A stretch of DNA of 34,265 nucleotides from Clostridia bacterium (GTDB lineage Bacteria > Bacillota > Clostridia > UBA1381 > UBA9506), in contig JAFQAZ010000014.1 in assembly GCA_017416855.1 (NCBI GenBank), forward strand, positions 1-34,265. Direction: 5' to 3'. A program made the translations under genes and the position numbers. Shown piece by piece: positions 7,418 through 28,710 of the stretch; position 1 is the first letter of the stretch, and the number at the start of each line of letters is the position of its first letter. Below the pieces are notes generated by a model that was not told where the DNA came from, ran no database searches, and saw only the letters and a program-made list of their open reading frames with translations.

Positions 7418-10400
7418 ATGAAGGGAATAAAATCTTTTATCAGCCTGCTTTGTGTAGCTTCGATGCTTTTCTCCTGTGGTATAATGGTTTCTGCCGAAAC
7501 AACGAATGGCGAGCCCTTAAGTGGTGCGACTACAAGCCGTGCTTATTTTGAGCAAACCATCAGCCAATATGAGCAGAGTGAAGCGGAATTCCGTGATCCA
7601 CAGGCAAAAATCACCGATGAACAGTTTTTTGGTGTATACGATGCTTCATCAGAGACTTGGACAACACAGCCTCTTTTGAACTATGAAGAGTATGTGGCGC
7701 TTTCGGATGTAGAAGGAGCCGCAAAAGAAGGCGATTACAGTAAAGCAAAAGAAGGTATTTTAAACTATTATCAGCAAAAGTTTTCCACAACAACAGTGGG
7801 TCTTAATGCTTCCACCTCTAAGGTAGATGAATACAAAGCCAAGCTAATGCTGGAAAACATCATCGCCACTTGCACTGTGGCGGACATCATCCAGTTAACG
7901 AACGAATTTCAGACTTTTGATGTAGATGTTACCTCTTTGGTCAGTTCTGCAAAATCAACGTCTACCAAGCGTCAGTCGTTTTCTTTACTGGCTCTGAAAA
8001 AGGATGGCAGTATGGGCTTGTTCTATTCAAAGGAATCGGAACAAAAGCCATATATTGAAGCAACGGTTAATGGTCGTCTGCGTACCTATTATCCCATTGC
8101 TGATACTTACATTGAAGCGGGTACAAAAAGTACTGTGGTAAATGGTACAAGTGGCATTATGGCAGTAGAGGAGTCTTATTCAAGTATTGGTATTGCAACC
8201 TCCAGCCGAACCGATACGTATACAAAACGCGGTGTACTCTTATTTGAATTTAGTGATATTAACGCAAATGATAAGGTTACTGGTGCCCGTTTGGTATTAA
8301 CCGGCTGTAAAACCATCTCCGACAATCCACGCGGTCCTGAAACACTGCTTTCTTATAAGGACATTGTGGTTGCGAGTGCTTCAGATGAACAGTGGGATGA
8401 AAACTCTTATTGCTGGGGTCAGGCCACTACTGGTGATTTTCATTCCTTCAATGGCGAATATGCCTGGGAACCCGGTACCAGTCTTGCACTGGTTGATCCC
8501 TTGCGAATTGGTATTCGTGTTTGGAAAAATACGCAAGAAGAGGCCTATGCTTATAACACACTGCGTATGATGACCACAGCTATGGGCTTTCACCTGCAGA
8601 GAGCAGAGGGCTTAGGTGAGCAAACAACGTTGGCTTTAACGAGCTTTTTAGGAGACTTTCCTCAGCTTGTTGCCGATGCTACAAGAATGCCCTGTATTAC
8701 GCCGGAAAAGTTTACTTTAATTCTAAAATATATGCACGAGGCAACCGAAACAGCAGTACGTCAATGGACGCCTAATGAAGAAGGCGGCAACTTTGGTATG
8801 TCAAGCGGTGGCAGTATTTTAATGTCCGGTTTGTTATATCCTGAATTCAGAAAGGCAACAGAGCCTTTATCAGAAAAACCAATGGATGAAGATGCACCAG
8901 GTGGCCGTACAGGTGGTTGGCGTGCCGTTGGCGATTTTCGTGTAAATTATAATGCAAATATTGAGTTGTTTTCTGATGGCTCCTGTATTGAGGTCGCTTT
9001 TGGCTACGTCCGATATGTTTTAAATCTGTTCATTCGTGTGCCAAACCTTTGCGCTAATATGAACATTGATATGAATGAAGTTGTCAGTCCTGAGTTGATG
9101 AAAACTATGGAAAAATTCATGATTTATCTTATGAATGTTTCCACCCCTTCAGCCAATGGTGGCAGTTGGGGTCAAGGTGATGAAAAGGGTTTAAACACCA
9201 GCGCTCTGACGAATTTTAAAAGTCTGATTGATGCGGTGGATAATCCCAATTTAGAGTGGCTGTATTCCGGTAAAACAACAGGTGAGGCACCTGATTATCT
9301 TTCTGTTGCCTACGATGTAGGCAGAAAAGCCGTTCTTCGTTCCGGTTGGGACCCGCAGGCAATTGCTGCACAAATTAATGCAGACGGCGCTAATGAAACT
9401 CACGGTCACTCAGATGATTTATCTTTGAATTTCTATGCTTATGGCCGTAATCTGTTGATAGATCCTCTCTGTCCGGATTATGATACGGTTGAGGATATAA
9501 CTGCCTGGTTTTATACAAACCGAGCCCATAACACCATCGAGATTAACGATGTGAAGCAAAAGGGTAAGGGTAGATCCGGTGAATTGACTTATACAACCCC
9601 TCGAGGAGAAACAGAAACTGTTTACTCAAAGCATGGCACGGAAACAGAGGCCGGTGATTTACATCCGGAGGATAGGGAACTGAACCCTATGTATAACTAC
9701 TTTAAGGCAGAAACCTATAGCTATCAGCAAAACAACGGCCTTTATGATGATTATGAAGTTCTCCGCGAAATTCTGTTTATTGAACCGGAATATATGTTGG
9801 TGACAGATTACATAAATCCCATGATGGATCAGCGTGCGGTGAATAACTACAAGCAACATTGGCATGTGCCTTTAAATGCCGGCCTGACGGTAGATAGTGA
9901 AACCGGCATTGCCAAGACAAACTTTGAAACAGGTGCTAATGTTATTGTTGCGCAGGCTATGGGTGGCGAGATTCCTTTAGAAAGTAAGTTAGCAAGCGGA
10001 TGGTATAACACCAAAGACCAGCCTGCAGATTACATTCGCTATGAAAAAACAGCCCCCGGTACAGTAACCTTTAACACTATTTTATATCCTGTGGCGCCTG
10101 GTGGTCAGGCTGAGGTAGAAGCTCAAAAGCTGCCCATTGCTTTAACAGAAGCGCAGGCCAGTGCCTTTAGCTACACCATTGAGGATAAAAAGGCAGGTAG
10201 CAATAAAGAAGCAGCTTGCTATAGCCTCCATGATGTAACGAAAAAGCAGGAAATTATCTTTGGTGACTATAAAACAGATGGTCGCCTGGCCTTTGTACAG
10301 AAGCAAGGCACAGTCTATGATAAAGCCATTCTTCGTGATGGCACAAGTCTGGCAATAGATAATAGCGATATTGTTCTTCTTTCCTCAACGGAAAATATTT

Positions 10401-11335
10401 CTGATTTAGGTTTAGATTGGAACGGTAATGAGATTCATTTGGCAACATCTAAAACAGATGAAACTGCTGAGAACTATGTAGACCTTTCTAAGGTTAAAAT
10501 TTATGCTCCTTATGCAGAAAAGTTATATATCAACGATGTTGAAACAGGTTTCACCCGTGATGGTCACTATGTGATTCCGGTGCCCGGCACCTCCGGCGAT
10601 AATAATCCCGACTTGCCCACCGATATTCCTGCAGATCCAGGCAGCACACCGCAGCCTCCCAGTCACGGTGATGTAACCGGTGGCGTTACCGACACAACAG
10701 TACCTCAGCTTCCTCCCATTGCAATAGGTAATGTACCTATTGGCGGTGCTACAAGCGGCGGTGGCATAAGCAGTGGCGGTATTAGCGGTAATGTTCCGCA
10801 AAATCCTTATGCAAAAGAACTTTCCGGTCATTGGGGCAAAGCAGAAATTGAAGCCTTGATAGCGAGTGGGATTGTAAATGGTTCCGGCGATTCTCTGTTC
10901 TTAAATAATGCCGTAACCCGTAGTGAGTTCGCAGCCTTATTGGTTCGTGCTCTTAAATTAGAGATTGTTCCCTATGAGGGCGCTTTTTCTGATGTTTCCG
11001 GCACGGAATGGTATGCAGATATTTTACAGACAGCAGAAAAATATAACATAATAGAAGGTAGCGACGGTAAGGCGATGCCCAATAGTGTGCTCACTCGTGA
11101 GCAGATGGCCAAAATGCTGGTAATCGCTTTAGAAAAAACAAAGCCGGAGGCACTAATCGGTACGGTTCCTGCGTTTGCCGATGAGGCCAGTATCAGCCCC
11201 TGGGCCAGGGATTATGTGGCAAAAGCCACAGCCTGCAGTTTGATGAATGGGGTGGGTGACAACTGCTTCCTGCCCGGTGGCACGGCTTTAAGAGAACAAG
11301 CCTTTGTAACTGTTTATCGTTTACTCAATAAGTAA
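7418..11335 (+). CDS. SLH-anchored heparinase II/III-family polysaccharide lyase, 1305 aa
   Basis: A signal peptide ends near VSA-E (about residue 27). Residues about 60-130 include the A..GDYSKAKE.IL.YY pattern typical of the alpha-helical N-terminus of alginate-lyase/heparinase II-III proteins. About 145-380 resembles DNRLRE/CBM96-type wall or sugar-binding sandwiches (FDVDVTSLV; YYPIADTYI; RGVLLFEFSD). The helical toroid follows. At about 660-720 lies the heparinase II/III C-terminal signature, HGHSDDLSLNFYAYGRNLLI and then NRAHNTIEI, which supplies the conserved His residues. A beta-sandwich, a Pro/Gly-rich linker (about 1060-1130) and three SLH repeats (from about 1135) end the protein. 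These enzymes cleave uronate-containing polysaccharides by beta-elimination, leaving a 4,5-unsaturated uronate, the substrate type of the GH88 enzyme encoded downstream. The PL family and exact polymer cannot be told by eye. Ribosome site AGGAGGG at 7403-7409. Confidence 0.88.
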   Translation: MKGIKSFISLLCVASMLFSCGIMVSAETTNGEPLSGATTSRAYFEQTISQYEQSEAEFRDPQAKITDEQFFGVYDASSETWTTQPLLNYEEYVALSDVEGAAKEGDYSKAKEGILNYYQQKFSTTTVGLNASTSKVDEYKAKLMLENIIATCTVADIIQLTNEFQTFDVDVTSLVSSAKSTSTKRQSFSLLALKKDGSMGLFYSKESEQKPYIEATVNGRLRTYYPIADTYIEAGTKSTVVNGTSGIMAVEESYSSIGIATSSRTDTYTKRGVLLFEFSDINANDKVTGARLVLTGCKTISDNPRGPETLLSYKDIVVASASDEQWDENSYCWGQATTGDFHSFNGEYAWEPGTSLALVDPLRIGIRVWKNTQEEAYAYNTLRMMTTAMGFHLQRAEGLGEQTTLALTSFLGDFPQLVADATRMPCITPEKFTLILKYMHEATETAVRQWTPNEEGGNFGMSSGGSILMSGLLYPEFRKATEPLSEKPMDEDAPGGRTGGWRAVGDFRVNYNANIELFSDGSCIEVAFGYVRYVLNLFIRVPNLCANMNIDMNEVVSPELMKTMEKFMIYLMNVSTPSANGGSWGQGDEKGLNTSALTNFKSLIDAVDNPNLEWLYSGKTTGEAPDYLSVAYDVGRKAVLRSGWDPQAIAAQINADGANETHGHSDDLSLNFYAYGRNLLIDPLCPDYDTVEDITAWFYTNRAHNTIEINDVKQKGKGRSGELTYTTPRGETETVYSKHGTETEAGDLHPEDRELNPMYNYFKAETYSYQQNNGLYDDYEVLREILFIEPEYMLVTDYINPMMDQRAVNNYKQHWHVPLNAGLTVDSETGIAKTNFETGANVIVAQAMGGEIPLESKLASGWYNTKDQPADYIRYEKTAPGTVTFNTILYPVAPGGQAEVEAQKLPIALTEAQASAFSYTIEDKKAGSNKEAACYSLHDVTKKQEIIFGDYKTDGRLAFVQKQGTVYDKAILRDGTSLAIDNSDIVLLSSTENISDLGLDWNGNEIHLATSKTDETAENYVDLSKVKIYAPYAEKLYINDVETGFTRDGHYVIPVPGTSGDNNPDLPTDIPADPGSTPQPPSHGDVTGGVTDTTVPQLPPIAIGNVPIGGATSGGGISSGGISGNVPQNPYAKELSGHWGKAEIEALIASGIVNGSGDSLFLNNAVTRSEFAALLVRALKLEIVPYEGAFSDVSGTEWYADILQTAEKYNIIEGSDGKAMPNSVLTREQMAKMLVIALEKTKPEALIGTVPAFADEASISPWARDYVAKATACSLMNGVGDNCFLPGGTALREQAFVTVYRLLNK

Positions 11336-13959: not shown

Positions 13960-14024
13960 AGTCAAAATTATCCAATAAAAGGCTAATGCTGTACATTGCT
14001 TCTACGAAAGCTTTAGGCTACAAT
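13960..14024 (+). promoter_or_regulatory. Regulon promoter copy A (operator + sigma-A-type promoter)
   Basis: The operator block AGTCAAAATTATCC (13960-13973) is followed by AATAAAAGG and by AATG...CATT just upstream of the -35. The -35 TTGCTT (13996-14001) and -10 TACAAT (14019-14024) are 17 bp apart. The same block-to-(-35) distance of 36 bp is found in the copies at 18033 and 22008. It drives the GH28-like/GH88 genes. Confidence 0.8.
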
Positions 14025-14039
14025 TAGAGTAGATACGAT

Positions 14040-14212: not shown

Positions 14213-14248
14213 CATAAAATAATTTTACTGGGCAGAAAGGTGATTGTC

Positions 14249-15670
14249 ATGTGTATAGACAAATTTAACCCAAATTATTATGTGGATTTAGCCGACGACA
14301 GTGCAATGATTCAAGCCGCTGTTGATGAAGCTGCCAAAACCGGCGATGCAGTAACCATTCCCAGAAACAATGCCAGAACCGGCAAAAATGTCTGGGACAT
14401 CAGCCGTGCCATCATGCTTTATACCGGTAGTGTGATTTATTTAGATAACTGTCATCTGCGTCAGGCAGATGATGTAATTACCAATATTTTTCGTAACTCC
14501 AACAACGAAACGGAATTAGGTTGTACCAGAGAGGGCCGTCAGAGCAACATCACCATTATTGGTATGGGCAACTGCCTGTTAGATGGCGGCGTTAAAAATG
14601 GTTTAACTGAAGTTAACTGTGCAGAATATGGTGTAAAAAGTGCTTGCGAAAACAGTATGTTTAACTTTATGAATGTGGAGAAGGTTAACATACGCAACAT
14701 TCGCATCACCCATCATAGATATTGGGCATTTGTATTCCATTATTCTTCTCATGTACAGATTTCCGGCATTGATTTCTATGGTCCCTATCATTGGCGTAAC
14801 CAAGACGGCATTAACTTAAGAACCGGTTGCTCCCACTTCTTTATTGAGAACCTGACCGGTGCTTTAGGTGATGATGTTGTGGCTATGACCAATCTTAACA
14901 ACTACCGTGATGAGTTAATGGCCGGCTGTGGCTATGATGACTCCATTCATAATGTAGTCATTCGCAACATTCGTGCTACGACCCGTGCTTCTTTTGTTCG
15001 CATTTTAAACCACCATGGCAAGAAAATTTATAATGTTTTAATTCAAGACTTAATGTTCGATGCTGAAGCTGACCCCACAGATCCAAGAATGGCCGGCTAT
15101 GATCCGATTCATCCCGAAGTTTACAAGTTCCGTCAGCATTACTGTGTGCGTATTGGTCAATGCCATTACTTTGGCAAGGGCTCCATGGCTCAGCTTGGCG
15201 ATACCTATAATATCACCGTTCGTAATGTAACCTGCCGTGGCCTTGCTGCTGTAAACATTGGCTGTGCTGTATCTGATGTTTTGGTGGACAATGTTCGCCT
15301 TTATGGTGAAGCCAACACCGTTGCCTACTTTGTGCAGGGTGTGGCCAGAAACATTATGATCCGTGATGTATATTATTCTGAGCATTGCCGTCCCAATCCG
15401 AACAATCCTGAAGACGATAACCGTAAGATTGAGGTTGAGTATGAAGGCTGTGAAAAGGACTGCGAAATTATGCCTGAAAAGCAGGTTTGTATGGCCTATT
15501 TTAAAAACACCGATGCTGATGATGTTACCTTCCGTGATGTTCATGTGGGCAAGGGTGTTACCGCTGTGTTTGGTGGTTATGGTAAGGTTCGTGTTCGCAC
15601 CTCGAATATTCGTTATCCCGAAGGCACACCTTTAACTGTGGGTCAGGGTATTGAGGTTATTGAAGAATAA
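14249..15670 (+). CDS. Cytoplasmic GH28-like right-handed beta-helix protein, 473 aa
   Basis: The start is ATG 14249 after AGAAAGGTG; an in-frame GTG at 14240 overlaps that ribosome site. There is no signal peptide, so it acts in the cytoplasm. Repeated short strands (NVVIRNI, ISGIDFYG, VLVDNVRLYG) mark a parallel beta-helix. NQDGINLRTG (from residue 184) and GDDVV (207-211) match the NTD and DD motifs of GH28 polygalacturonase-type hydrolases. The usual GHG and RIK motifs are not evident; at that place there is ASFVRILNHHG, with an RI and a displaced His. So it keeps the Asp residues of the family but departs around the catalytic His and substrate-binding Lys. It may hydrolyse imported oligosaccharides of unusual linkage, or do something else on the beta-helix scaffold. 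It is followed by GH88, as in uronate-polymer loci. Confidence 0.75.
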   Translation: MCIDKFNPNYYVDLADDSAMIQAAVDEAAKTGDAVTIPRNNARTGKNVWDISRAIMLYTGSVIYLDNCHLRQADDVITNIFRNSNNETELGCTREGRQSNITIIGMGNCLLDGGVKNGLTEVNCAEYGVKSACENSMFNFMNVEKVNIRNIRITHHRYWAFVFHYSSHVQISGIDFYGPYHWRNQDGINLRTGCSHFFIENLTGALGDDVVAMTNLNNYRDELMAGCGYDDSIHNVVIRNIRATTRASFVRILNHHGKKIYNVLIQDLMFDAEADPTDPRMAGYDPIHPEVYKFRQHYCVRIGQCHYFGKGSMAQLGDTYNITVRNVTCRGLAAVNIGCAVSDVLVDNVRLYGEANTVAYFVQGVARNIMIRDVYYSEHCRPNPNNPEDDNRKIEVEYEGCEKDCEIMPEKQVCMAYFKNTDADDVTFRDVHVGKGVTAVFGGYGKVRVRTSNIRYPEGTPLTVGQGIEVIEE

Positions 15671-15870: not shown

Positions 15871-15929
15871 CCATTCAGGAACCTTTTTTCCTATCCCCTA
15901 TAGAGCGAAAAAGAAAGGATTTTAAAGTT

Positions 15930-17093
15930 ATGTTCGATTTTAAACAAGCAATAGCACAAGATAAGGCTTTTGCCGATAGCGTTTGGGAAAAGCTGGATAA
16001 AAAGCTTCAGGTTATGGCAGTTCGTTCACGTGAAAAATTGCCCTATACCACCGAAAACGGTGAGCATATTAACTCTTATCTTCGTGGCATTTGCAGCTGG
16101 ACAAACGGCTTTTGGCCGGGTATGATGTGGCTTTTATATTATGGTACAAAAAACGAGACCTACCGTACCACTGCTGAGCGAAGTGAAGAACTTTTGGATG
16201 AGGGTTTAAAGGAATATGAAGGCTTGCATCACGATGTGGGCTTTATGTGGCAGCTTTCTGCCGTTGCCGATTACAAAATTACCGGCAACAAGGCCTCTCG
16301 CATTCGTGCATTGCACGCAGCTAACCTGTTAATGGCTCGCTATAACATTCGCGGTGGTTTTATCCGTGCCTGGAATGACTGGGATGAAAAATGTGAGCAA
16401 AGAGGCTGGACCATTATAGACTGTATGATGAATCTTTCTCTTTTATATTGGGCCAGTGAAGAAGTTAATGACCCCCGGTATAAATATGTGGCTATGGCAC
16501 ATGCAGATAAGGCAATGGAGCATCATATTCGTCCTGATGGTTCTGTTCGTCACATCGTTTCCTTTAATCCGGAAAATGGTGAATTTATTGAAGCTTTGGG
16601 CGGTCAGGGTTATGATGCAAACTCCTCTTGGTCTCGTGGACAGGCGTGGGCTCTTTATGGCTATGCCATCAGCTATATGAAAACCGGAAAAACAGCCTAT
16701 TTAGATACGGCTAAGCGTGTGGCTCATTACTTTATTTCTTGTGTTTCCAACGATTATATGCCTCGTTCTGATTTCCGCGCACCGAAGGAGCCGGTGATTT
16801 ACGATAGCAGTGCCGGTGCCATTGCAGCCTGTGGATTATTAGAGTTGGCACGTTTGGTTCCTGCTAATGAAGGCGCGTTTTATTATGATGCTGCAGTTAA
16901 ACTCTTAAAGGTTATAGATGAAAACTGGTGTAATTATACCTTAGAGGAGGATTCTATTCTGCAAATGTGCACCAGTAGCTGGACACAAGAAGGTCTTGCT
17001 CATCGCTGGGCTCATAAGCCTCTTATTTTTGGTGAGTATTATTTTGTAGAAGCCATCTACAAATTAAAGGGCTTTGATTTGTTGTTTGAATAA
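15930..17093 (+). CDS. Unsaturated glucuronyl hydrolase, GH88 family, 387 aa
   Basis: It removes the 4-deoxy-4,5-unsaturated uronic acid left at the non-reducing end by polysaccharide lyases, by hydrating the vinyl ether; the product opens to a 5-keto-4-deoxyuronate. The alpha6/alpha6-barrel family signatures are clear: WTNGFWPGMMW near 54, LHHDVGFMW with Asp102, and IIDCMMNLSLLYWAS with Asp164. These two Asp residues correspond to the catalytic pair of characterised GH88 enzymes. AYRWG-like closing motifs (LAHRWAHKPLIFGEYYFVEA) end the protein. The start is ATG 15930 after GAAAGGA; the frame remains open upstream to 15783, but that extension begins with TTG inside a hairpin and has no family match. 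Length is typical and there is no signal peptide. The SLH-anchored lyase upstream is the natural supplier of its substrate. Confidence 0.93.
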   Translation: MFDFKQAIAQDKAFADSVWEKLDKKLQVMAVRSREKLPYTTENGEHINSYLRGICSWTNGFWPGMMWLLYYGTKNETYRTTAERSEELLDEGLKEYEGLHHDVGFMWQLSAVADYKITGNKASRIRALHAANLLMARYNIRGGFIRAWNDWDEKCEQRGWTIIDCMMNLSLLYWASEEVNDPRYKYVAMAHADKAMEHHIRPDGSVRHIVSFNPENGEFIEALGGQGYDANSSWSRGQAWALYGYAISYMKTGKTAYLDTAKRVAHYFISCVSNDYMPRSDFRAPKEPVIYDSSAGAIAACGLLELARLVPANEGAFYYDAAVKLLKVIDENWCNYTLEEDSILQMCTSSWTQEGLAHRWAHKPLIFGEYYFVEAIYKLKGFDLLFE

Positions 17094-17145
17094 CGGCCCT
17101 ATATATGAAATGTAGAGAATAGGCAAAGTATAGGAGAAACAGCTG

Positions 17146-18015
17146 ATGTTTAAATTAGGAATAATTACCGATGAGGTTTCACAAGATTTTGAAGAGGCAT
17201 TGCAATTTGCCCAAAAAAATAAGTTAGACTGTGTGGAACTTCGTTCTGCCTGGGAAAAAAATCCCTTTCAATATGATGAGGAGGATTTTCAAAGAATTGC
17301 GGGCTTATTAAAGCAATATGAAATGCCCTTGCTTTGCATTTCTTCTCCTTTATTTAAATGTGATTTTTATAATCCCGAAGAAAGAAAAGAGCATTTGGAG
17401 GGTTTAAAGCGACTACTGGCTCATAAAGATCTTTTGGGCTTTACCATGATTCGTTGTTTTGACTTTTATCTTAAGGAAGGGATGCCCGTTAGCCATGAAC
17501 AGATAAAAGAAGCTTTTGCTGAGCCCATTGCTCTCTGTAAGGCTGCCGGTGTAACCCTAGTGTTAGAGTGTGAGCCTTCCACTCATTCGGGCAACTGTGA
17601 AACCACCGCAGCAACCATTCGTGCCGTTGGCTCTGAAACCCTGCGTGGCGTTTATGAACCGGGCAATGTGCTTTTTAGCGGGACTGATGAAGTACCATTT
17701 CCCCAAGGTTATGAACGGATGAAGGACGTTTTTGCCCATGTGCATATTAAAGATGCTAAAGAGATTGACGGCAAAATGCAAGGGGTTTGTGTGGGAACCG
17801 GTTTGGTGGATTATCCCGGCATAATTCAGGAGTTTATTGACTCCGGCTATGAAGGCGCTTTGATTTTTGAACCACATTATAAACCCAATGGTATTGTGAT
17901 TAGCGAAGAAGTGTTTAGAAATCCACAAGGTAGCGCTATTTCCGCCTTTGGTGATATTGCAAGCCAGGAGTGTATTGATTCTCTGCGTGATATTATCGCT
18001 AAAGTGACGAAATAA
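17146..18015 (+). CDS. Sugar-phosphate isomerase/epimerase family (xylose-isomerase-like TIM barrel), 289 aa
   Basis: The protein opens with MFKLGIITDEVSQDFEEAL, as in AP-endonuclease-2/xylose-isomerase-like TIM barrels. Probable metal ligands are Glu141 in LVLECEPS, a His in the VYEPGNVLF region's neighbourhood, His200 in HVHIKDAK and Glu in ALIFEPHY near the C-terminus. This order is typical of the family, which includes sugar and keto-inositol isomerases, epimerases and dehydratases. The substrate cannot be read from the sequence. It is 52 nt after GH88 with ribosome site AGGAG and no promoter between, so it probably acts on the sugar GH88 releases. It could act as a KduI-like isomerase for the unsaturated uronate product, since no KduI homologue is present. 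That is an inference. Confidence 0.8.
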   Translation: MFKLGIITDEVSQDFEEALQFAQKNKLDCVELRSAWEKNPFQYDEEDFQRIAGLLKQYEMPLLCISSPLFKCDFYNPEERKEHLEGLKRLLAHKDLLGFTMIRCFDFYLKEGMPVSHEQIKEAFAEPIALCKAAGVTLVLECEPSTHSGNCETTAATIRAVGSETLRGVYEPGNVLFSGTDEVPFPQGYERMKDVFAHVHIKDAKEIDGKMQGVCVGTGLVDYPGIIQEFIDSGYEGALIFEPHYKPNGIVISEEVFRNPQGSAISAFGDIASQECIDSLRDIIAKVTK

Positions 18016-18032
18016 AAAACTGACAATTAAAA

Positions 18033-18097
18033 AGTCAATATTGTCCGTATAAAAGCCAATGCAATGCATTGCTTTTTGCTTGATTCTAAGATACAAT
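18033..18097 (+). promoter_or_regulatory. Regulon promoter copy B
   Basis: AGTCAATATTGTCC (18033-18046), GTATAAAAG, then a perfect inverted repeat AATGC-AAT-GCATT (18058-18070) runs into the -35 TTGCTT (18069-18074). The -10 TACAAT (18092-18097) is 17 bp away. This is the clearest of the three copies. The predicted start near 18104 forces the next gene to begin at ATG 18147. Confidence 0.82.
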
Positions 18098-18146
18098 AAA
18101 AGTGTTCATGCTTTTGAATTTTTTATGTGTTTTTAGGAGGATAAAT

Positions 18147-19028
18147 ATGATAAAAGTAGCAATTTTAGGAATTGATAATAGCCATGCCTGGGCTTTTGCA
18201 GGGGCTCTTGCCAATAAGGATGGTTCTAAATTGTTTGAAGATGTAGAACTTATTGGCATGTATGGGGATTATGATACCGAGGATGGAAAAATTGCCATGG
18301 CTGAAATTGCCAAGTGCAGCAGCTGTAGCAATTATGCAGCGCATTATAATGACTTTTTAGATGAGGCTGATGCCATTCTGGTTACCGCTCGCCATGGTAA
18401 ATATCATTTAGAATATGCCAGAGAGTATATTAAAAAGGGCATTCCTGTTTGGATCGATAAGCCCTTTACCTGTTCTCCGGAAACGCTTTGTGAAATGCTG
18501 GATTTGGCTAAAGAGTGTGGTTGTACCATTACGGGAGGTTCGGACCTGCCTCATTTGCCCATAATAAAAGAGGCTATTGCAGAAACAAATGCCTTTTCTA
18601 AAATTTTAGGCGGTCATGTAACGGCACCCATTCATATGAATAGCCCTTATGGCGATTTTTGGTTCTATGCTCAGCATCTGGTGCAAATGATAACCTCTGT
18701 TTTTGGCACTGAGGTAAGAAGCGTGCGTGCATTTCGGGAAAATGATGGTGTAACAGCTCTTTATTCCTTTGATGATTTTACTGTAACAGCCCGATTTGGC
18801 AGTGGTTACACCCTTTTAGTCTATGGTGAAGATAACAAAATTGTTCAAAAAGAAATTATTTCCTCTGCGGAGCACTTCGTAATAGCTTTACACGTTTTTT
18901 ATGATGTGATTAAAAGCGGTAAATCCGATATGACTTATCGGGAAATGGCGGCTCCTGTTTACATTATTGATGCAACCATAAAGGCTTATACAGATGGCAA
19001 GGAAGTTTCAATCACCCTGCCTTATTGA
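18147..19028 (+). CDS. Gfo/Idh/MocA-like oxidoreductase with atypical nucleotide-binding motifs, 293 aa
   Basis: I start at ATG 18147, seven bases after AGGAGG; the frame open from 18102 would begin upstream of the predicted transcription start of promoter B. The N-terminus MIKVAILGIDNSHAWAFAG has a Rossmann strand-turn, but with GIDNSH in place of the usual GxGxxG. The family EKP motif is DKP at residues 104-106 (WIDKPFTCS). The C-terminal half is the alpha/beta substrate domain, and the whole is shorter than the usual 330-380 residues. The family reduces or oxidises sugar hydroxyl/keto groups with NAD(P). It is a one-gene unit: own promoter and a strong terminator at 19042. It could be the reductase step after the isomerase, or have lost normal cofactor use. 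The substrate is unknown. Confidence 0.75.
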   Translation: MIKVAILGIDNSHAWAFAGALANKDGSKLFEDVELIGMYGDYDTEDGKIAMAEIAKCSSCSNYAAHYNDFLDEADAILVTARHGKYHLEYAREYIKKGIPVWIDKPFTCSPETLCEMLDLAKECGCTITGGSDLPHLPIIKEAIAETNAFSKILGGHVTAPIHMNSPYGDFWFYAQHLVQMITSVFGTEVRSVRAFRENDGVTALYSFDDFTVTARFGSGYTLLVYGEDNKIVQKEIISSAEHFVIALHVFYDVIKSGKSDMTYREMAAPVYIIDATIKAYTDGKEVSITLPY

Positions 19029-19215: not shown

Positions 19216-19983
19216 ATGATTAAAAAAATTAAAATAGATGCCTTAGGTGTGCAGGTTTTTGCCACTCGTGATGAAATGGGAAAGGCCGCTGCCGATGATG
19301 TGGCCGCTTGTATTAAAGAGCTACTTTCTGAAAAAGAGGAAATTAATATGATTTTTGCAGCGGCTCCTTCTCAAAACGATGTTTTATATCATCTTTGCGA
19401 GAAAGAAGATATTCCATGGGAAAGAATTAATGCTTTTCATATGGATGAATACATTGGTTTGCCCCAAAATGCGCCTCAAGGCTTTGCTAATTTTCTATTA
19501 GATAAAATTTTCTCCAAAAAACCTTTTCGGTCTGTGAACTTAATTGATTCCACAGCTATTGAGCCGGAAACAGAGAGTGCGCGCTATGGTGCCCTTTTGG
19601 ATGCTTATCCTACCGATATTGTCGTTTTGGGCATTGGGGAAAATGGACACATAGCCTTTAACGATCCCCATGTGGCCGATTTTAATGATAAGCTTGTGGT
19701 AAAGCCTGTGCAGTTAGATGAGGTTTGTCGCCAGCAACAGGTGAATGACGGCTGTTTTGAGAAGCTTTCGCAGGTGCCGAAATTTGCATTGACACTCACT
19801 ATTCCCACTTTGTTTCGTGCTCAACATTTGTTTTGTGTTGTGCCTTGCCAAACTAAGGCAAAGGCGGTTAAGGCGACTGTTGAAGGTCCCATTAGCGTGG
19901 ACTGTCCGGCATCAATTATGAGAAAGCATCCCTCTGTCACTCTTTATTGCGATGCTGAGAGCGCATCTCTTTTGGAGGACTGA
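19216..19983 (+). CDS. nagB: Glucosamine-6-phosphate deaminase-like protein, 255 aa
   Basis: NagB converts glucosamine 6-phosphate to fructose 6-phosphate and ammonia in the cytoplasm. FHMDEYIGL (around residue 75) matches the FnmDEYvgl motif, and GIGENGHIAFNDP (139-151) matches GvGnDGHIAFNEP. Against the E. coli enzyme the Asp of that motif is Asn143, a change I recall in Gram-positive NagB proteins, and the Glu is Asp150. ALTLTIPTLFRA and ATVEGPIS are the later family blocks. Length is slightly short of the usual 240-266 range's upper end and complete. The gene is followed after 2 nt by nagA, with the latter's ribosome site inside the nagB end. The pairing makes N-acetylglucosamine-6-phosphate (or a close relative) the likely pathway input. 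GAAAGGA precedes the ATG. Confidence 0.85.
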   Translation: MIKKIKIDALGVQVFATRDEMGKAAADDVAACIKELLSEKEEINMIFAAAPSQNDVLYHLCEKEDIPWERINAFHMDEYIGLPQNAPQGFANFLLDKIFSKKPFRSVNLIDSTAIEPETESARYGALLDAYPTDIVVLGIGENGHIAFNDPHVADFNDKLVVKPVQLDEVCRQQQVNDGCFEKLSQVPKFALTLTIPTLFRAQHLFCVVPCQTKAKAVKATVEGPISVDCPASIMRKHPSVTLYCDAESASLLED

Positions 19984-19985: not shown

Positions 19986-21155
19986 ATGACCACAAGAATA
20001 AAAAACGGAAAATATATTTTGCCTGATGGAATTTATGAGGACTTATATCTCTATTTTACCGATGATACTATTACGGCTATTACCAAAGATGAACTTACCT
20101 ATGAGGAAGAAATTGACGCGAAGGGGTATTATGTTTCCCCCGGTTTTATTGACATGCACGTACATGGTGGCGGCGGCCGGAGCTTTGCAGCAGGTGATAA
20201 AGAATCCATTATTAAAGCAGCCAACTTCCATGCCTCTCATGGTACTACTTCTATTTTAGCTACCTCTTCGGCTTGTTCACCCAAACGGTTGGTAGATTTT
20301 TTAAGAGCTTTACATGAAGTGATGGAAGAAAAGAGTGCCCCCAGCGTGATTGGTGCTCATTTAGAGGGTTCTTATTTTTCACTGGCCCAAAGCGGTGCTC
20401 AGAATCCGGAATTCATTAAAGCACCGGACCCGAAAGAATATGAAATGTTTTATGAAGAGGGTAAGGGGCACATTATGGTATGGTCCTTTGCACCAGAGCT
20501 TCCTGGTGGCGAAGCATTTGTTAAGTTTTTAATGGAGAAGGGCATTATTCCATCTATCGGTCATTCCAATGCCACTTATGCCGATGTGAAAAAGGTCTAT
20601 GACTTAGGTTGTCGAGCCTTTACTCATTTATATTCCGGTATGTCTACCATTACAAGGGATAATGGCTTTCGTCGTTTGGGTGTTATTGAATCGGCCTATC
20701 TTTTAGATGATGTTCATGCAGAAATCATTGCCGATGGCTGCCATCTGCCACCAGAACTTTTACAGCTGATTGTAAAACGTTTGGGTGTGGATAATCTTTG
20801 TCTCATTACTGATGCTCTTCAGGTGGCCGGTATGGAGCATATGGAACAATCCCTTACCAGAGAGGTAGAAAGTCTGGCCTTCATCGTAGAGGATGGAGTA
20901 GCCAAATTGCCGGATAGAAGTGCCTTTGCCGGGAGTATTGCTACGACCAATCGGTTAGTGAAAACCATGATTGATAAAGCTGGTGTTTCTTTGGAGGAAA
21001 GCATTCAGATGATGACTGCAAATCCGGCCAGATTTCTGCATCTTACAAAGAAAGGCAGACTGGATCCCGGACTGGATGCCGATATTGTTATCTTTGATGA
21101 TGAAATTGACATTAAGCGGGTGATTATTGGTGGCAACACTTTTACAGTAGCCTGA
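19986..21155 (+). CDS. nagA: N-acetylglucosamine-6-phosphate deacetylase, 389 aa
   Basis: This amidohydrolase removes the acetyl group from N-acetylglucosamine 6-phosphate, feeding NagB. Family motifs are in place: GFIDMHVHGGGG with His58/His60, HLEGSYFS with His125 and metal ligand Glu127, GHSNAT, THLYSGMS (usually THLFNAM), and LITDALQVAG with catalytic Asp276. The C-terminal NPARFLHL and GRLDPGLDADIVI are typical. Length equals the family norm of about 380-395. Ribosome site GGAGG sits within the nagB end. The altered THLYSGMS and HLEGSYFS positions might reflect a related substrate rather than GlcNAc-6-P itself; this is only a hint. Confidence 0.92.
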   Translation: MTTRIKNGKYILPDGIYEDLYLYFTDDTITAITKDELTYEEEIDAKGYYVSPGFIDMHVHGGGGRSFAAGDKESIIKAANFHASHGTTSILATSSACSPKRLVDFLRALHEVMEEKSAPSVIGAHLEGSYFSLAQSGAQNPEFIKAPDPKEYEMFYEEGKGHIMVWSFAPELPGGEAFVKFLMEKGIIPSIGHSNATYADVKKVYDLGCRAFTHLYSGMSTITRDNGFRRLGVIESAYLLDDVHAEIIADGCHLPPELLQLIVKRLGVDNLCLITDALQVAGMEHMEQSLTREVESLAFIVEDGVAKLPDRSAFAGSIATTNRLVKTMIDKAGVSLEESIQMMTANPARFLHLTKKGRLDPGLDADIVIFDDEIDIKRVIIGGNTFTVA

Positions 21156-21184
21156 TTTATGGTTTTTTGAGAGGAGGAAAGGAT

Positions 21185-22027
21185 TTGCCTTTACAAAATC
21201 AAGAAAAGATGATATTTGAGAAGGAAGATTTTCCTATTCGGGTTTCCTTCCTTCCCTCTGTCAACAGCACCAACAGTCTTTGGCACGAGGACATTGAACT
21301 GAAATGTGTTCTTTCCGGTCAGGTTCAAATGATGATCGATACAGAAATTATAACGGCTGGTGCGGGAGACATTATTTTTATTAATCCGCATCAGATTCAC
21401 TCTAATGTGACTTTGGGGGAGGAAGGGAGCTATCAACTCATTATACTGGGGCTGGACTTGTTTGCTCCTACTGATACTTTAGATTTGCGAAGACTCTTTT
21501 TGGAGGAAGGAATGCAGATCAAAAATCTGGTGCAAAATTCAATGGCTTTTTCCATAGCGGAGCGCTTGATAAATGAATATGAAAGCCATCAGCCCTACAG
21601 CCAACTGGCTATGGAAGGACTTGCAAAAGAGCTTTTTGCAGTGTTACTGCGTCAGGAACAGGACAAAGGAGCCTTGCGTGGGAGTCTGAAGGGACATATT
21701 AAGTTTTATAAAACCATTGAACCGGCGGTGGTTAAGCTTCGGGAGTGTTATGATGAAAGCTTTTCCGGTGATGAATTAGCTGGCTTTTGTAAGTTGAATC
21801 GCCATTATTTTTGTCGTATATTTAAACAGGCGATGGGAGTCACTCCAATACAATACCAGAATGCTTGCCGATTAAAGATGGCCGATATTTTCATGAAGGA
21901 TATGAAACTGAGTATTTCTGAAATCGCTCATCGTGTAGGCTTTGAGGATGAAGCTTATTTTAGTCGCGCCTATAAAAAATACCGTGGGATATCTCCTAAA
22001 CAAGCGAAGTCAACATTGTCCAAATAA
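21185..22027 (+). CDS. AraC-family transcriptional regulator with cupin sensor, 280 aa
   Basis: I choose TTG 21185, seven bases after AGGAGG (21172-21177); an upstream TTG at 21167 overlaps that site, and ATG 21209 is the alternative. Residues about 20-100 are an AraC-type cupin (WHEDIELKCVLSGQVQMMI, AGAGDIIFINPHQIHSN). The C-terminal 100 residues are two helix-turn-helices: DELAGFCKLNRHYFCRIFKQ, then ISEIAHRVGFEDEAYFSRAY followed by GISPKQ. It is cotranscribed with nagBA (29 nt gap). One copy of the conserved regulon operator (22008) overlaps its last codons, so it is the prime candidate to bind all three copies, probably as an activator because the operator sits directly upstream of poor -35 boxes. 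The ligand may be a degradation intermediate. Confidence 0.9.
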   Translation: MPLQNQEKMIFEKEDFPIRVSFLPSVNSTNSLWHEDIELKCVLSGQVQMMIDTEIITAGAGDIIFINPHQIHSNVTLGEEGSYQLIILGLDLFAPTDTLDLRRLFLEEGMQIKNLVQNSMAFSIAERLINEYESHQPYSQLAMEGLAKELFAVLLRQEQDKGALRGSLKGHIKFYKTIEPAVVKLRECYDESFSGDELAGFCKLNRHYFCRIFKQAMGVTPIQYQNACRLKMADIFMKDMKLSISEIAHRVGFEDEAYFSRAYKKYRGISPKQAKSTLSK

Positions 22028-22072
22028 AAGCTAATACAATGCATGGACTTTTATTTTTTTCTAAGATAAAAT
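22008..22072 (+). promoter_or_regulatory. Regulon promoter copy C
   Basis: AGTCAACATTGTCC (22008-22021), then AAATAAAAGC and AATACAATGCAT. The -35 position holds TGGACT (22044-22049), a poor match, and the -10 is TAAAAT (22067-22072), again 17 bp apart. The operator block overlaps the end of the araC coding sequence. It drives the oxidoreductase-aminotransferase-amidohydrolase operon. Confidence 0.78.
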
Positions 22073-22111: not shown

Positions 22112-23110
22112 ATGAAAGCATTGATTATTGGTGGTGGCGCTATTGCTGAACAACACTGTCAGGCGTTAACCAAGCTGGGCGTGGAGGTTTATGCCATTTG
22201 TGATTTAAACATAAAAGCAGCTCAGACGCTGGCAGAACAATATCGGGCTAAAGCATTTGGCGATGTTAGCCTTGCTTTAGCAGAACAGGTTGATTTTGTG
22301 TCCGTTTGTACCCCTAGCGGCACACATCCGGCTCTGGCTATTCAAGCAATGGAGGCAGGTAAGCATGTGGTTGTAGAAAAACCATTAGCTTTATGTGTTG
22401 AAGATTGTAAGTCTGTGATAGAAACAGAAAAGAAAACCGGAAAAATTTGTGCCCCTATTTCTCAGCTGCGTTTTTCTGAAACCTATAAAAGCGTTAAGCG
22501 CATTATAGAGGCTGGCGAGCTTGGCACCTTAGTTACCGGTTCTTTATCTATGCACTATTATCGAGCGCCGGAGTATTATGCGGGTAGCTGGAAGGGCACC
22601 AAAGCATTAGATGGTGGCGAGTTGTTTAACCAGGGAATTCACGGTTTGGATGTTATGTGCGGTCTTTTGGGAAAACCTACCCAAGTATCCGGATCAGTTG
22701 TTACCCGGCTTCATCAGATTGAAACAGAGGATACGGCTGTTGCTTCTATGATATATCCCGGTGGTATGATGGGTACATTAGAGAGTTCTACTGCTGTGTT
22801 TTATTCCACACCAAGACGGATGGAAATCTGCGGTACCAAGGGTAGCATTACGATGATTGAGGATACGATTTCTGTAGCTGAGGGAGTTTCCTTAGAACTA
22901 AGCCCCCAAAAGAAGTTTATTACCAATGATCCGAAATTAGAAAGCAGCGAAGAACATGAACGTATTTATAAAAACATTCTGGCTGCCTTTCTTGGAAAAG
23001 AAAAGCTTCAGTATACAACAAAAGATGCAGCAAATACTGTGCATCTTATTTGTGCCATCTATGAATCATCAGAAACGAAACAAGTCATTACTTTGAAGGA
23101 GGAATTATAA
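22112..23110 (+). CDS. Gfo/Idh/MocA-family NAD(P)-dependent oxidoreductase, 332 aa
   Basis: The N-terminal Rossmann motif is GGGAIAEQH (residues 7-15), and EKP (89-91, VVEKPLALCVEDC) holds the catalytic-site Lys90. The C-terminal sheet domain carries GGELFNQGIHGLDVMCGLLG with the usual H...D arrangement. Length is typical. It should oxidise or reduce a sugar or sugar-derivative carbon. Its stop overlaps the start of the DegT-type aminotransferase by one base (TAATG), a sign of translational coupling. In known pathways such pairs (WbpB/WbpE, NtdC/NtdA) interconvert a 3-hydroxy, 3-keto and 3-amino sugar. Here the catabolic setting suggests the reverse direction; that is an inference. Start ATG 22112 follows AGGAG. 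Confidence 0.9.
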   Translation: MKALIIGGGAIAEQHCQALTKLGVEVYAICDLNIKAAQTLAEQYRAKAFGDVSLALAEQVDFVSVCTPSGTHPALAIQAMEAGKHVVVEKPLALCVEDCKSVIETEKKTGKICAPISQLRFSETYKSVKRIIEAGELGTLVTGSLSMHYYRAPEYYAGSWKGTKALDGGELFNQGIHGLDVMCGLLGKPTQVSGSVVTRLHQIETEDTAVASMIYPGGMMGTLESSTAVFYSTPRRMEICGTKGSITMIEDTISVAEGVSLELSPQKKFITNDPKLESSEEHERIYKNILAAFLGKEKLQYTTKDAANTVHLICAIYESSETKQVITLKEEL

Positions 23111-24444
23111 TGGTAAAGGAAAAACTAGCATTACTTGGAGGAACCCCTATCATTGACAAAGAGCCTCCAAAGGAATTATTTAAGTGGCCCATCATCACAA
23201 AAGAGGATGAAGAAGCAGCTTTAGAGGTTATTCGTTCCGGAAACTTTTCCGGTACAGATATTTCAATGCAATTTGAAAAGGAATTTGCACAATGGATCGG
23301 CACAAAACACGCTTTGGTATTCTGCAACGGAACCCAGGCTCTTGCCGCTGCGATGTTTGCCGTCGGTCTGGGTGCAGGAGATGAAATCATTTGCACCACC
23401 AAAACCTATTGGGCCAGCATTACGCCGTCTCTGATTTTTGGTGCAACCCCTGTATTTTGTAATGTTGATGAAAATCTGAGTATGGATCCGGATGATATTG
23501 AACGTTGCATTACCCCAAAGACAAAGGCTTTAATGGTGGTTCATTATTGTGCATATCCCTGCGATATGGATAGAATTATGGCTATTGCAAAAAAACACAA
23601 CTTAATTGTAATTGAAGATGTTTCTCATGCACAAGGTGGCTACTATAAGGGTAAGAGACTGGGTACCTTTGGTCATGTAGCAGCTATGTCTTTAATGAGT
23701 GAAAAATCCTTTGCGATTGGTGAAGGTGGTATGTTCGTTACGAATGAAACTTATATGTATGAACGAGCAGTTGCTTATGGCCACTATGAACGTAATAATG
23801 AAAAGTTTTTATCTGAAAATGAGGACATCAAAAAATTTTATGGCTTGCCTCTGGGTGGCGTTAAGGCAAGATTAAATCAGGTTTCTGCAGCCATTGGTCG
23901 TGTGCAGCTTAAGTATTATGATGAACGCTGTGCAGAAATTGATGAGGCAATGAATTATTTCTGGGATATATTAGAAGAAATTCCCGGTATTCGTGCCATC
24001 CGTACAGAAAAGGGCAGCGGATCTACTATGGCTGGTTGGTATGCTTGTAAGGGAGTATATGATGCTGAAGCCTTTGGCGGTCTTCCAATAAAGAAGTTCT
24101 GTGAAGCTGTGCGTGCGGAAATGAGTAATACGGCCGGTGTTTATGCCGGTGCAAACTACTGTCTGCACACCCATAAGCTGTTCACGGAACTGGATTTCAG
24201 AAATGCAGGCAAGCCTTCTTCCATCGAATATTTGGAAACTTCCTCCTACCATGGTGCTGAAAACTGCGACGAATCTATTATTGATAACAGTTTTTCGGTG
24301 CCGATGTTTAAACGCAATTATAGAGAATGGTTGGAAAAATATGCTCAGTGCTTTAAGAAAGTTGCAGAAAACTATGAGCAGCTTTTAGGTGAAGTGTCTG
24401 TGCAAGACACTCAAGGTGGCCGTTGGTTTGGTTCTGTAGACTAA
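23110..24444 (+). CDS. DegT/DnrJ/EryC1/StrS-family PLP aminotransferase, 444 aa
   Basis: Fold-type I aminotransferase of the sugar-aminating class. VIRSGNFSGTD and FCNGTQALAAAMFAVGLG form the cofactor pocket entrance. IEDVSHAQGG holds Asp170, which contacts the pyridine nitrogen. SEKSFAIGEGGMFVT holds the Schiff-base Lys199. GGVKARLNQVSAAIGRVQL is the typical later block. It is longer than most members (370-400 residues) through a C-terminal extension (about 370-444). The family transfers an amino group to or from a keto sugar or keto-inositol. The one-base overlap with the upstream dehydrogenase points to a channelled two-step conversion. Substrate unknown. Confidence 0.9.
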   Translation: MVKEKLALLGGTPIIDKEPPKELFKWPIITKEDEEAALEVIRSGNFSGTDISMQFEKEFAQWIGTKHALVFCNGTQALAAAMFAVGLGAGDEIICTTKTYWASITPSLIFGATPVFCNVDENLSMDPDDIERCITPKTKALMVVHYCAYPCDMDRIMAIAKKHNLIVIEDVSHAQGGYYKGKRLGTFGHVAAMSLMSEKSFAIGEGGMFVTNETYMYERAVAYGHYERNNEKFLSENEDIKKFYGLPLGGVKARLNQVSAAIGRVQLKYYDERCAEIDEAMNYFWDILEEIPGIRAIRTEKGSGSTMAGWYACKGVYDAEAFGGLPIKKFCEAVRAEMSNTAGVYAGANYCLHTHKLFTELDFRNAGKPSSIEYLETSSYHGAENCDESIIDNSFSVPMFKRNYREWLEKYAQCFKKVAENYEQLLGEVSVQDTQGGRWFGSVD

Positions 24445-24481
24445 ATCGGGCTTGAAATAATATCAAACAGGAGATAAGAGA

Positions 24482-25366
24482 ATGATTAAAATTGATGCAC
24501 ATAATCATCCGGACTTTCTCGGGATGGGAATTCAAAAATTTATTGCCAATATGGATGAAAACGGCATTGATAAAACCGTTTTGTTAACTGACGAAAAACC
24601 TTGGGAAGAAATATATATGAATGAACTTGGTGTAAATCCCAGTCCTTTGGCTGCCAGTGAGGAGCATTGTATTCCTTTTAATCGTTGCTTGGATTTTTAT
24701 GAAAAAGCACCTGAACGTTTCATTTTAGGCTATTGCCCGGATCCACGTCGGCCACAGGCAGTACATAAAATGAAATCAGCTATCCATACCTACGGCGTTA
24801 AGGTTTGCGGTGAGGTTAAGTTCAGAACTATGTATGATAATCCTGACTGTATTGACCTGTTTCGTTACTGCGGTGAACAGGGGGTGCCGGCAATTTTGCA
24901 CTTTGATGTGGCAGAAGCCCAGATTGCACCTAAAGGCTCCTATTGGAGACATTATTGGTATGGCGGTGATATTAACACCTTAGAACGACTGTTAGAACTT
25001 TGCCCTGAAACTAATTTTCTGGGTCATGCTCCTGGTTTCTGGGCTTGCATTTCGAATGACGATTTGTGGAAAACGGTAGACTATCCCCAAGGACCTGTAA
25101 TCCCCGGTGGTCATATTGAACGGTTGCTGGAAAAATTCCCAAACCTTTATTGTGATTGTTCTGCTTATTCTGCTTTGGCGGCACTTTCACGCGACTCTGA
25201 ATATACCAAGAAACTGATTATGACCTTTCCGGATAGATTTGTATATGCCCGTGATAATTTTGAAATTCAGTTGGCACCATTTATTGATTCCTTAGGCCTT
25301 TCGCAGGATGTCTTGGAAATGTTTTATCACAAAAATATTGAGCGTTTAATCGGGGAAGGCAAATAA
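24482..25366 (+). CDS. Amidohydrolase family 2 (metal-dependent TIM-barrel hydrolase), 294 aa
   Basis: The protein begins MIKIDAHNHPD, with the HxH metal motif at His7/His9. CGEVKFRTMY and PAILHFDVAEAQ are further strand ends, FLGHAPGFWA supplies another His, and YARDNFEIQLAPF the C-terminal Asp region. This pattern fits PF04909 amidohydrolase-2 enzymes, which include sugar lactonases, decarboxylases and hydratases. It is last in the operon, 37 nt after the aminotransferase, with ribosome site CAGGAGA. A lactonase for a lactone formed by one of the two Gfo/Idh enzymes is a reasonable guess; the sequence does not prove it. Confidence 0.8.
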   Translation: MIKIDAHNHPDFLGMGIQKFIANMDENGIDKTVLLTDEKPWEEIYMNELGVNPSPLAASEEHCIPFNRCLDFYEKAPERFILGYCPDPRRPQAVHKMKSAIHTYGVKVCGEVKFRTMYDNPDCIDLFRYCGEQGVPAILHFDVAEAQIAPKGSYWRHYWYGGDINTLERLLELCPETNFLGHAPGFWACISNDDLWKTVDYPQGPVIPGGHIERLLEKFPNLYCDCSAYSALAALSRDSEYTKKLIMTFPDRFVYARDNFEIQLAPFIDSLGLSQDVLEMFYHKNIERLIGEGK

Positions 25367-27882: not shown

Positions 27883-28248
27883 TTATCTTTTTTCTAAAAA
27901 TTCTTTTAATTTTTCGAAGGTTTCCTGGCTGATATCGTGTTCTATTTTGCAACTATCTTCATAAGCAGTTGTTTCGTTTACGCCTATTGCCATTAAAGCT
28001 TTGGCAATAACCTGATGCCGTTCATACACCCGTTCAGCAACGGAAAGGCCTTTTTCGGTCAGGGTAATGTTGCCCTCTGCATCGATCACAATGTATTCAT
28101 CTTCACGAAAATTTTTCATAGCAACTGAAACGCTGGGCTTTGAAACGCCTAATTCGTTTGCGACATCAATGCTGCGGACATAGCCTTTTTCTTTATGTAA
28201 CATAAAAATGGCTTCGAGATAATTCTCGGCCGATTCTTTAATAATCAT
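27883..28248 (-). CDS. DtxR-family iron-dependent repressor, short form, 121 aa
   Basis: The N-terminal winged helix (VRSIDVANELGVSKPSVSVA) is followed by a dimerisation/metal domain, with no C-terminal SH3-like domain, as in MntR. Against B. subtilis MntR the ligand Glu of EGIEHH is Cys here: Cys100-Lys-Ile-Glu103-His104. This equals the Cys-x-x-Glu-His set (C102, E105, H106) of diphtheria DtxR, which senses Fe(II). His78 and Glu12 are also at ligand positions, and MntR Asp8 is Asn9. So I favour iron over manganese sensing. It is divergent from feoAB, whose promoter carries two palindromes that are its likely targets. A separate consensus promoter drives it. Confidence 0.88.
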   Translation of the reverse strand: MIIKESAENYLEAIFMLHKEKGYVRSIDVANELGVSKPSVSVAMKNFREDEYIVIDAEGNITLTEKGLSVAERVYERHQVIAKALMAIGVNETTAYEDSCKIEHDISQETFEKLKEFLEKR

Positions 28249-28282
28249 ATGACATACCTCATATCAATTTTGAAGTATTTTA

Positions 28283-28311
28283 ATTATAACATAATTGAGA
28301 GTGAATGTCAA
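28283..28311 (-). promoter_or_regulatory. Promoter of the dtxR-type gene
   Basis: On the - strand TTGACA (28311-28306), 17 bp, TATAAT (28288-28283): perfect consensus, about 35 bases before the ATG. No palindrome overlaps it, so it may not be autoregulated. Confidence 0.9.
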
Positions 28312-28346
28312 ACGAAGAAATTTTTAAAAAAAGTTATCAAAAAGAC

Positions 28347-28375
28347 TTGACAAGACTGGTTAGTTATGGTAAACT
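28347..28375 (+). promoter_or_regulatory. feoA promoter
   Basis: TTGACA (28347-28352), 17-bp spacer, TAAACT (28370-28375). The first operator palindrome covers the -10 box and the end of the spacer. Confidence 0.85.
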
Positions 28376-28379
28376 AACC
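28358..28379 (+). promoter_or_regulatory. Operator 1 of the feo promoter (DtxR-type)
   Basis: GGTTAGTT-ATGGTA-AACTAACC is a palindrome with perfect 8-bp arms. TTAG/CTAA half-sites are typical of DtxR-family boxes. Its overlap with the -10 implies repression. Confidence 0.82.
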
Positions 28380-28385
28380 GTGTTG

Positions 28386-28401
28386 GTTAGTTATGACTAA
28401 C
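28386..28401 (+). promoter_or_regulatory. Operator 2 of the feo promoter (DtxR-type)
   Basis: GTTAGT-TATG-ACTAAC is a second palindrome just after the predicted transcription start. It shares the GTTAGTTATG core with operator 1, and the two GGTTAGTTATG starts are 27 bases apart. Confidence 0.8.
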
Positions 28402-28431
28402 TTGTTGATGGATACGGAGGTGACAACTTAC

Positions 28432-28653
28432 ATGTTTACATTAAAAGATGCTAAAATCGGCCAGACAGTCAAGGTTGTTAAACTAGAAGGCGAAGGTGCT
28501 GTGAAACGCCGTATTATGGATATGGGTATCACGAAAGGAACAATGATTACATTGCGCAAACTGGCACCGTTAGGCGATCCTATGGAATTAACCGTGCGTG
28601 GTTATGAACTGTCGCTGCGAAAAGAGGATGCTCAACGGATTATAGTTGAGTAG
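28432..28653 (+). CDS. feoA: Ferrous iron transport protein A, 73 aa
   Basis: Small SH3-like cytoplasmic partner of FeoB. The pattern is typical: LKDAKIGQTVKVVKLEGEGA, then RRIMDMGITKGT, and a final PMELTVRGYELSLRKEDAQ. I start at ATG 28432 after GGAGGTG (28417-28423); an in-frame ATG at 28393 lies within operator 2 and would add 13 residues not usual in the family. It is 57 nt before feoB in the same unit. Confidence 0.95.
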   Translation: MFTLKDAKIGQTVKVVKLEGEGAVKRRIMDMGITKGTMITLRKLAPLGDPMELTVRGYELSLRKEDAQRIIVE

Positions 28654-28710
28654 TGTATAGTTTTTTGATAAACAGTTAGTTTCTTCTAACTGATAAATGG
28701 AGGCAAAAGA

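Follow-up and report, generated by a model that had tools for sequence, protein, structure and literature searches.

Operon structure and operator-like element

The 34,265-nt contig JAFQAZ010000014.1 of a gut-type Clostridia bacterium (GenBank assembly GCA_017416855.1), hereafter the window, is one complete contig (C13) of a 32-contig, 2.37-Mb genome. It carries three consecutive genes encoding a Gfo/Idh/MocA dehydrogenase (Gfo2), an aminotransferase of the DegT/DnrJ/EryC1/StrS family (DegT) and a metal-dependent hydrolase (AmH2). The dehydrogenase and the aminotransferase share a private switch with polysaccharide-degrading enzymes, and the pair therefore probably helps to take an amino sugar apart. 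The operon, its regulator and the operator-like elements are as follows (ORF, open reading frame):

22112..23110, + strand: Gfo2, WlbA-like Gfo/Idh/MocA dehydrogenase (motif YYRAPEYYAGSWKGTKALDGGELFNQGIH; Lys of EKP); ORF of 332 aa, Pfam
23110..23110, + strand: one-base stop/start overlap (TAATG) coupling Gfo2 and DegT; sequence
23110..24444, + strand: DegT/DnrJ/EryC1/StrS aminotransferase, 444-aa subfamily, catalytic Lys present; ORF, Pfam
24482..25366, + strand: AmH2, Amidohydro_2 metal-dependent hydrolase; ORF of 294 aa, Pfam
21167..22027, + strand: AraC-family regulator with an AraC_binding cupin; Pfam
13960..14003, + strand: operator-like element, copy 1, about 280 nt before the GH28-like gene; repeat and pattern search
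18033..18076, + strand: operator-like element, copy 2, before Gfo1; repeat and pattern search
22008..22051, + strand: operator-like element, copy 3, before Gfo2-DegT-AmH2, overlapping the araC 3' end; repeat and pattern search

All three ORFs of the operon are intact and lie on the same strand. By direct reading, base 23110 belongs both to the TAA of Gfo2 (23108-23110) and to the ATG of DegT (23110-23112), with AAGGAGG just 5' of this TAATG, so that the one-base overlap reported in the initial annotation is real. AmH2 starts 37 nt past the end of DegT. Pfam assigned GFO_IDH_MocA and C-terminal domains to Gfo2, DegT_DnrJ_EryC1 to DegT (241.3 bits for a cut-off of 19.8) and Amidohydro_2 to AmH2 (32.8 bits). 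An Rfam scan of the window returned tRNA only.

The operon had also been placed under the promoter of a catabolic regulon, and this was borne out. A repeat search identified a 99-nt repeat (72% identity) preceding both Gfo1, a second and shorter Gfo/Idh/MocA gene, and Gfo2, with a third copy before the GH28-like gene. We searched for a 44-nt element with the pattern AGTCAANATTRTCCNNATAAAAG, allowing up to three mismatches. Three matches were found in the window, for 0.02 expected, and the 2.37 Mb of the genome contain exactly these three (one match for the reversed control). The AraC protein is presumably what binds this element. With a matrix built from the three sites, the best matches outside the window lie directly upstream of the DegT genes of loci L038 (score 26.9) and L037 (22.1), to be compared with maxima of 17.6 in five 800-kb shuffles and 18.9 in 509 other promoters. 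Weaker scores were obtained upstream of DegT in L016 (15.2) and L009 (8.3). These four loci are those in which the AraC protein, encoded next to DegT, is clearly related to that of the window (31-44% identity).

Relatives of the three enzymes

Among solved structures, the profile of the Gfo2 family matches best to 3q2k (286 bits) and 3q2i (271 bits), which are WlbA of Bordetella pertussis and Chromobacterium violaceum; the next chain reaches 180 bits. WlbA is a UDP-N-acetylglucosaminuronate (UDP-GlcNAcA) 3-dehydrogenase. In the tree (quick search, moderate support), WlbA joins the Gfo2 clade, apart from the glucuronide-3-dehydrogenase 8tdi and from the IolG-like paralogues of the genome (Shimodaira-Hasegawa-like approximate likelihood ratio, SH-aLRT, of 87 at the node). 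Residues K90, N173, Q174, H177, W160, G162 and T163 are invariant in the Gfo2 family (alignment A3). Gfo2 thus keeps the EKP Lys, the NQ..H motif and the YY..W[RK]GT stretch, all present in the WlbA alignment as well, and WlbA shares with it the EYY..WRGT..GG..NQ..H stretch and an IE.ED motif. Since Gfo2 is by far closest to WlbA, C3 oxidoreduction of a GlcNAc- (N-acetylglucosamine) or uronate-type sugar is supported at the sequence level, and the 3-keto intermediate suggested in the initial annotation agrees with both the profile scores and the tree. An assignment of Gfo2 as the inositol 2-dehydrogenase IolG is not supported, with 121 bits for a cut-off of 355 in the NCBIfam model.

The enzyme 8tdi also belongs to the Gfo/Idh/MocA superfamily and carries a similar type of motif, but falls in a separate clade. 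Enzymes of this type oxidise glycans for catabolic use, and we know of no DegT partner for them. Among the 21 Gfo/Idh/MocA matches of the genome, two proteins, L114 (G000:C17:49743-50798) and L119 (G000:C18:117253-118299; 47% identical), do group with 8tdi; as judged from this grouping, glycans may also be broken down by way of 3-keto intermediates in this organism.

The catalytic Lys of DegT (K199) is invariant in its family (alignment A1), which rules out a pyridoxal phosphate (PLP) dehydratase of the ColD/E1 type, as ColD-type enzymes have a His at this position. The closest solved relatives of the DegT profile are 7l7x (Pcryo_0638; 227 bits), Fic25 (214 bits) and perosamine synthase (204 bits). 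WbpE (146 bits) and NtdA (128 bits) both score below all three, and by these scores an origin of DegT from either was rejected. The "3-amino" specificity that had been proposed from likeness to WbpE and NtdA is therefore not given by homology, DegT being no nearer to them than to GDP-perosamine synthase, Fic25 or BtrR. Structure comparison does not separate the candidates, as all DegT aminotransferases tie (Z 38-41). The long aminotransferases BtrR/RbmB and Fic25 are of similar length to DegT and align with it structurally over their full length (384-406 residues, Z 38-40), compared with about 350-362 residues for most nucleotide-sugar enzymes; Fic25 also has the LA.LGG N-terminus of DegT. These enzymes do not use nucleotide sugars as substrates, and the longer alignment thus hints at a DegT substrate without a nucleotide link. 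In contrast to the reading that we favour for DegT, they are biosynthetic, and their identity to it is just 26-28%. In the tree, the window DegT forms a fully supported clade with those of L038, L009 and L016, each with a related AraC.

Two known systems combine the same superfamilies. WlbA/WbpB with WbpE is a Gfo/Idh/MocA and DegT pair, and the WbpB/WbpE pathway has been described (PMC10622841). The window differs from it in its degradation context without nucleotide-sugar genes, and in an aminotransferase that is 444 aa long and for which WbpE is a poorer match than the best solved relative. NtdC and NtdA of the kanosamine pathway of Bacillus subtilis are likewise encoded in a single operon. 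NtdA is, however, among the weaker matches of DegT, and NtdC/NtdA sits with antibiotic genes, whereas the window pair lies in an AraC regulon with a lyase, a GH88 enzyme and NagA.

For AmH2, the HxH motif, E111 (strand 4), H140 and H182 (strands 5 and 6) and D258 (strand 8) are conserved or nearly so, a set of residues suggesting a metal hydrolase. The predicted model (predicted local distance difference test, pLDDT, of 86) is an Amidohydro_2 TIM barrel. Its closest structures are the uncharacterised 3irs and 3cjp, followed by decarboxylases, the hydratase LigJ and lactonases. The possible lactonase of the initial annotation is supported as to its Amidohydro_2/COG2159-like fold and not as to its activity, since the model is as close to lactonases as to decarboxylases and hydratases (Z 18.8-19.5).

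Genomic context and possible roles

The genes preceding the operon on the same strand include the following:

7418..11335, + strand: heparinase II/III-like polysaccharide lyase, SLH-anchored, with CBM96
14240..15670, + strand: GH28-like beta-helix protein, just below the Pfam cut-off
15930..17093, + strand: GH88 unsaturated glucuronyl hydrolase (222 bits to unsaturated glucuronyl hydrolase)
17146..18015, + strand: AP_endonuc_2 sugar isomerase/epimerase-like TIM barrel; Pfam
18147..19028, + strand: Gfo1, short Gfo/Idh/MocA protein with an NSH N-terminal motif; Pfam
19216..19983, + strand: NagB-like deaminase/isomerase, under the nagB cut-off; Pfam, NCBIfam
19986..21155, + strand: NagA, N-acetylglucosamine-6-phosphate deacetylase; Pfam, NCBIfam

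These genes make up a degradation locus for a putative glucuronate-containing polymer, probably one with an amino sugar. The operon had been described as lying beside nagA and nagB. This holds for nagA, whose NCBIfam score of 233.8 bits lies above the cut-off of 225.65, and not for nagB: its homologue reaches 131.9 bits for a cut-off of 236.9, and by this comparison is a NagB-like paralogue.

We then considered the conservation of this neighbourhood in other genomes. DegT orthologs (49-58% identity) were found in 16 out of 391 genomes of the class, as well as in Planctomycetes, Verrucomicrobia, Latescibacterota and on haloarchaeal plasmids. Of 30 DegT ortholog loci (window included), 13 have a Gfo2-type gene within 5 kb, in every case on the strand of DegT, after exclusion of the Gfo neighbours of L045 and L054, which fall outside the clade in the tree. 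Gfo2 was also found within 4 kb of 12 out of 24 AmH2 relatives. Relatives of Gfo1 stand beside DegT, AmH2 or Gfo2 in L037, L044, L052, L097 and L104, and in L052 a NagB relative (54%) is immediately upstream of DegT. Gfo1 is thus tied to a single functional unit by two independent lines, the common operator in the window and its shared travel with DegT, Gfo2 and AmH2 elsewhere. Outside Bacillota, the conservation of neighbours is loose: of two haloarchaeal plasmids (DegT at 48-51%), one carries Gfo genes and the other only an amidohydrolase-family protein, and on either plasmid a ceramidase-like gene lies no more than about 15 kb away.

The reading that we favour, while granting it somewhat less than even chances, is a conserved catabolic module under AraC control, made up of Gfo1, Gfo2, DegT and AmH2, that processes an amino sugar released from a uronic-acid/amino-sugar polysaccharide. 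It is directly supported by the gene structure, the intact catalytic motifs, the common private operator, the conserved linkage and the kinship with WlbA. The lyase and the GH88 enzyme would open the polymer. DegT would act on the amino sugar as a PLP-dependent transaminase, with 2-oxoglutarate or pyruvate as the amine acceptor, and yield a keto sugar, whose keto group, most likely at C3, would be reduced (or, on another substrate, formed) by the coupled Gfo2. AmH2 would act by hydrolysis on a lactone or amide bond, either in the substrate or in the product, a further redox step would fall to Gfo1, and the NagA and NagB-like enzymes would take the GlcNAc part. The net outcome would be the release of an ordinary sugar and the scavenging of nitrogen inside a glycan-degradation regulon. 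By analogy with the known biosynthetic pairs, the one-base overlap might serve the hand-over of an unstable keto sugar. The removal of an amine at C3 or shuttling of a 3-keto intermediate, already put forward in the initial annotation, is partly supported, by the coupling, the co-regulation with degradation genes and the closeness to WlbA; for its direction and substrate, as for the C3 position and the reactions of AmH2 and Gfo1, we rely on inference.

Several observations weigh against this catabolic module, beginning with the inferred status of its substrate and deaminating direction. To our knowledge, every characterised DegT sugar aminotransferase runs in the aminating direction in vivo. 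Some DegT orthologs have neither Gfo2 nor AmH2 nearby. The operator signal is limited to loci with related AraC proteins; when all DegT orthologs are taken together, the scores show no significant increase (Mann-Whitney P = 0.09). Furthermore, in both L038 and the window the element extends into the coding sequence of araC, and this part of the match could be coding conservation; the match in L038 nevertheless runs on beyond the araC stop codon. Finally, a separate DegT clade (L046-L050) includes loci of biosynthetic appearance, the orthologs of L046 and L048 lying amid glycosyltransferases, an NTP transferase, a phosphomannomutase and a GHMP kinase, so that biosynthesis is likely elsewhere in the family. 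The clustering with cell-wall biosynthesis that the initial annotation had raised as the contrary outcome is thus found for one separate clade, and not for that of the window.

These same loci, together with the kinship of Gfo2 with WlbA, would favour a biosynthetic pair of the WlbA/WbpE or NtdC/NtdA kind: C3 oxidation of a perhaps nucleotide-linked sugar by Gfo2 would be followed by amination by DegT. The resulting amino sugar would go into a small molecule or into a surface glycan of the cell itself, and the position of the locus would reflect sensing or exchange of the same glycan. We consider this distinctly unlikely, as a glycosidase-like gene and Gfo1 have the same operator, the window pair has no neighbouring gene for a nucleotidyltransferase, glycosyltransferase or N-acyltransferase (ORFs, Pfam), the window DegT clade is separate from the glycosyltransferase-linked one, and DegT is not near WbpE or NtdA. 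An oxidation-elimination route is unlikely too, if less strikingly so: Gfo2 would produce a 3-keto glycoside, the AP_endonuc_2 TIM barrel would carry out a beta-elimination, Gfo1 would reduce the product and DegT would handle an amino-ketone derived from a 2-amino sugar. The locus does encode AP_endonuc_2 and two Gfo proteins, Gfo2 shares the YY..W[RK]GT..GG..NQ..H type of motif with 8tdi, and two other Gfo paralogues of the genome group with 8tdi. Gfo2 itself, however, groups with WlbA, no operator copy is dedicated to the AP_endonuc_2 gene, and in most relatives this gene was not seen beside DegT. Turnover of an aminocyclitol (inosamine type) by an ordinary pair of Gfo and DegT enzymes, unconnected with the polysaccharide, appears very improbable. 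It is true that BtrR and RbmB, two cyclitol aminotransferases, and Fic25 can be aligned with the whole of DegT and that none of the three uses nucleotide sugars. Gfo2 also matches the IolG model, but far from its cut-off and with an active-site motif of the WlbA rather than the IolG type, and a glycosidase-like gene is co-regulated.

The known role of DegT aminotransferases is to build amino sugars, and our literature search on catabolic DegT/Gfo pairs, kanosamine catabolism and amino-sugar catabolism by DegT found nothing on point. A conserved regulon joining DegT and a C3-type dehydrogenase to lyases and NagA would indicate an undescribed dismantling of unusual amino sugars from bacterial or host glycans. 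We regard as doubtful, at present, the wider proposal of a widespread Clostridia-type route in which DegT deaminates glycan amino sugars with a WlbA-like 3-dehydrogenase under a dedicated AraC regulon, transamination replacing deamination of the NagB type. The four-gene signature and the operator sequence make the pathway testable.

Related clusters and other observations

The same genome contains a second AraC-DegT-Gfo cluster (L129, G000:C16:1-15000, 7074-14496), with a DegT 41% identical to that of the window, AP_endonuc_2, a DHDPS-like aldolase and a BNR_2 sialidase-like protein, and a GH3 enzyme nearby. Another locus (L125, G000:C17:44000-63999, 560-18723) combines a 73% identical NagB paralogue with an alpha-L-fucosidase and several Gfo genes; its NagA was picked up only as a fragment, by a rough gene caller. 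In a third (L128, G000:C1:40000-59000, 8534-10609), a NagA-like amidohydrolase is fused to a ROK-family kinase domain in a protein of 691 aa, encoded beside ceramidase-like, Gfo and TIM-barrel genes.

In other genomes, neutral-ceramidase-like proteins occur near the DegT orthologs of L009, L015, L016, L107 and L108 (Bacillota, Verrucomicrobiota and haloarchaea), and RidA near the haloarchaeal ones. In L089, L091, L093 and L095, an AmH2-Gfo2 pair is followed by a pyroglutamyl-peptidase-like protein, with an adjoining URO-D family gene in some of them. Downstream of the operon, positions 27883-30840 of the window carry an iron-dependent-repressor-like gene, a short FeoA-like ORF and FeoB and, as read from their translations, look like an ordinary iron uptake locus.

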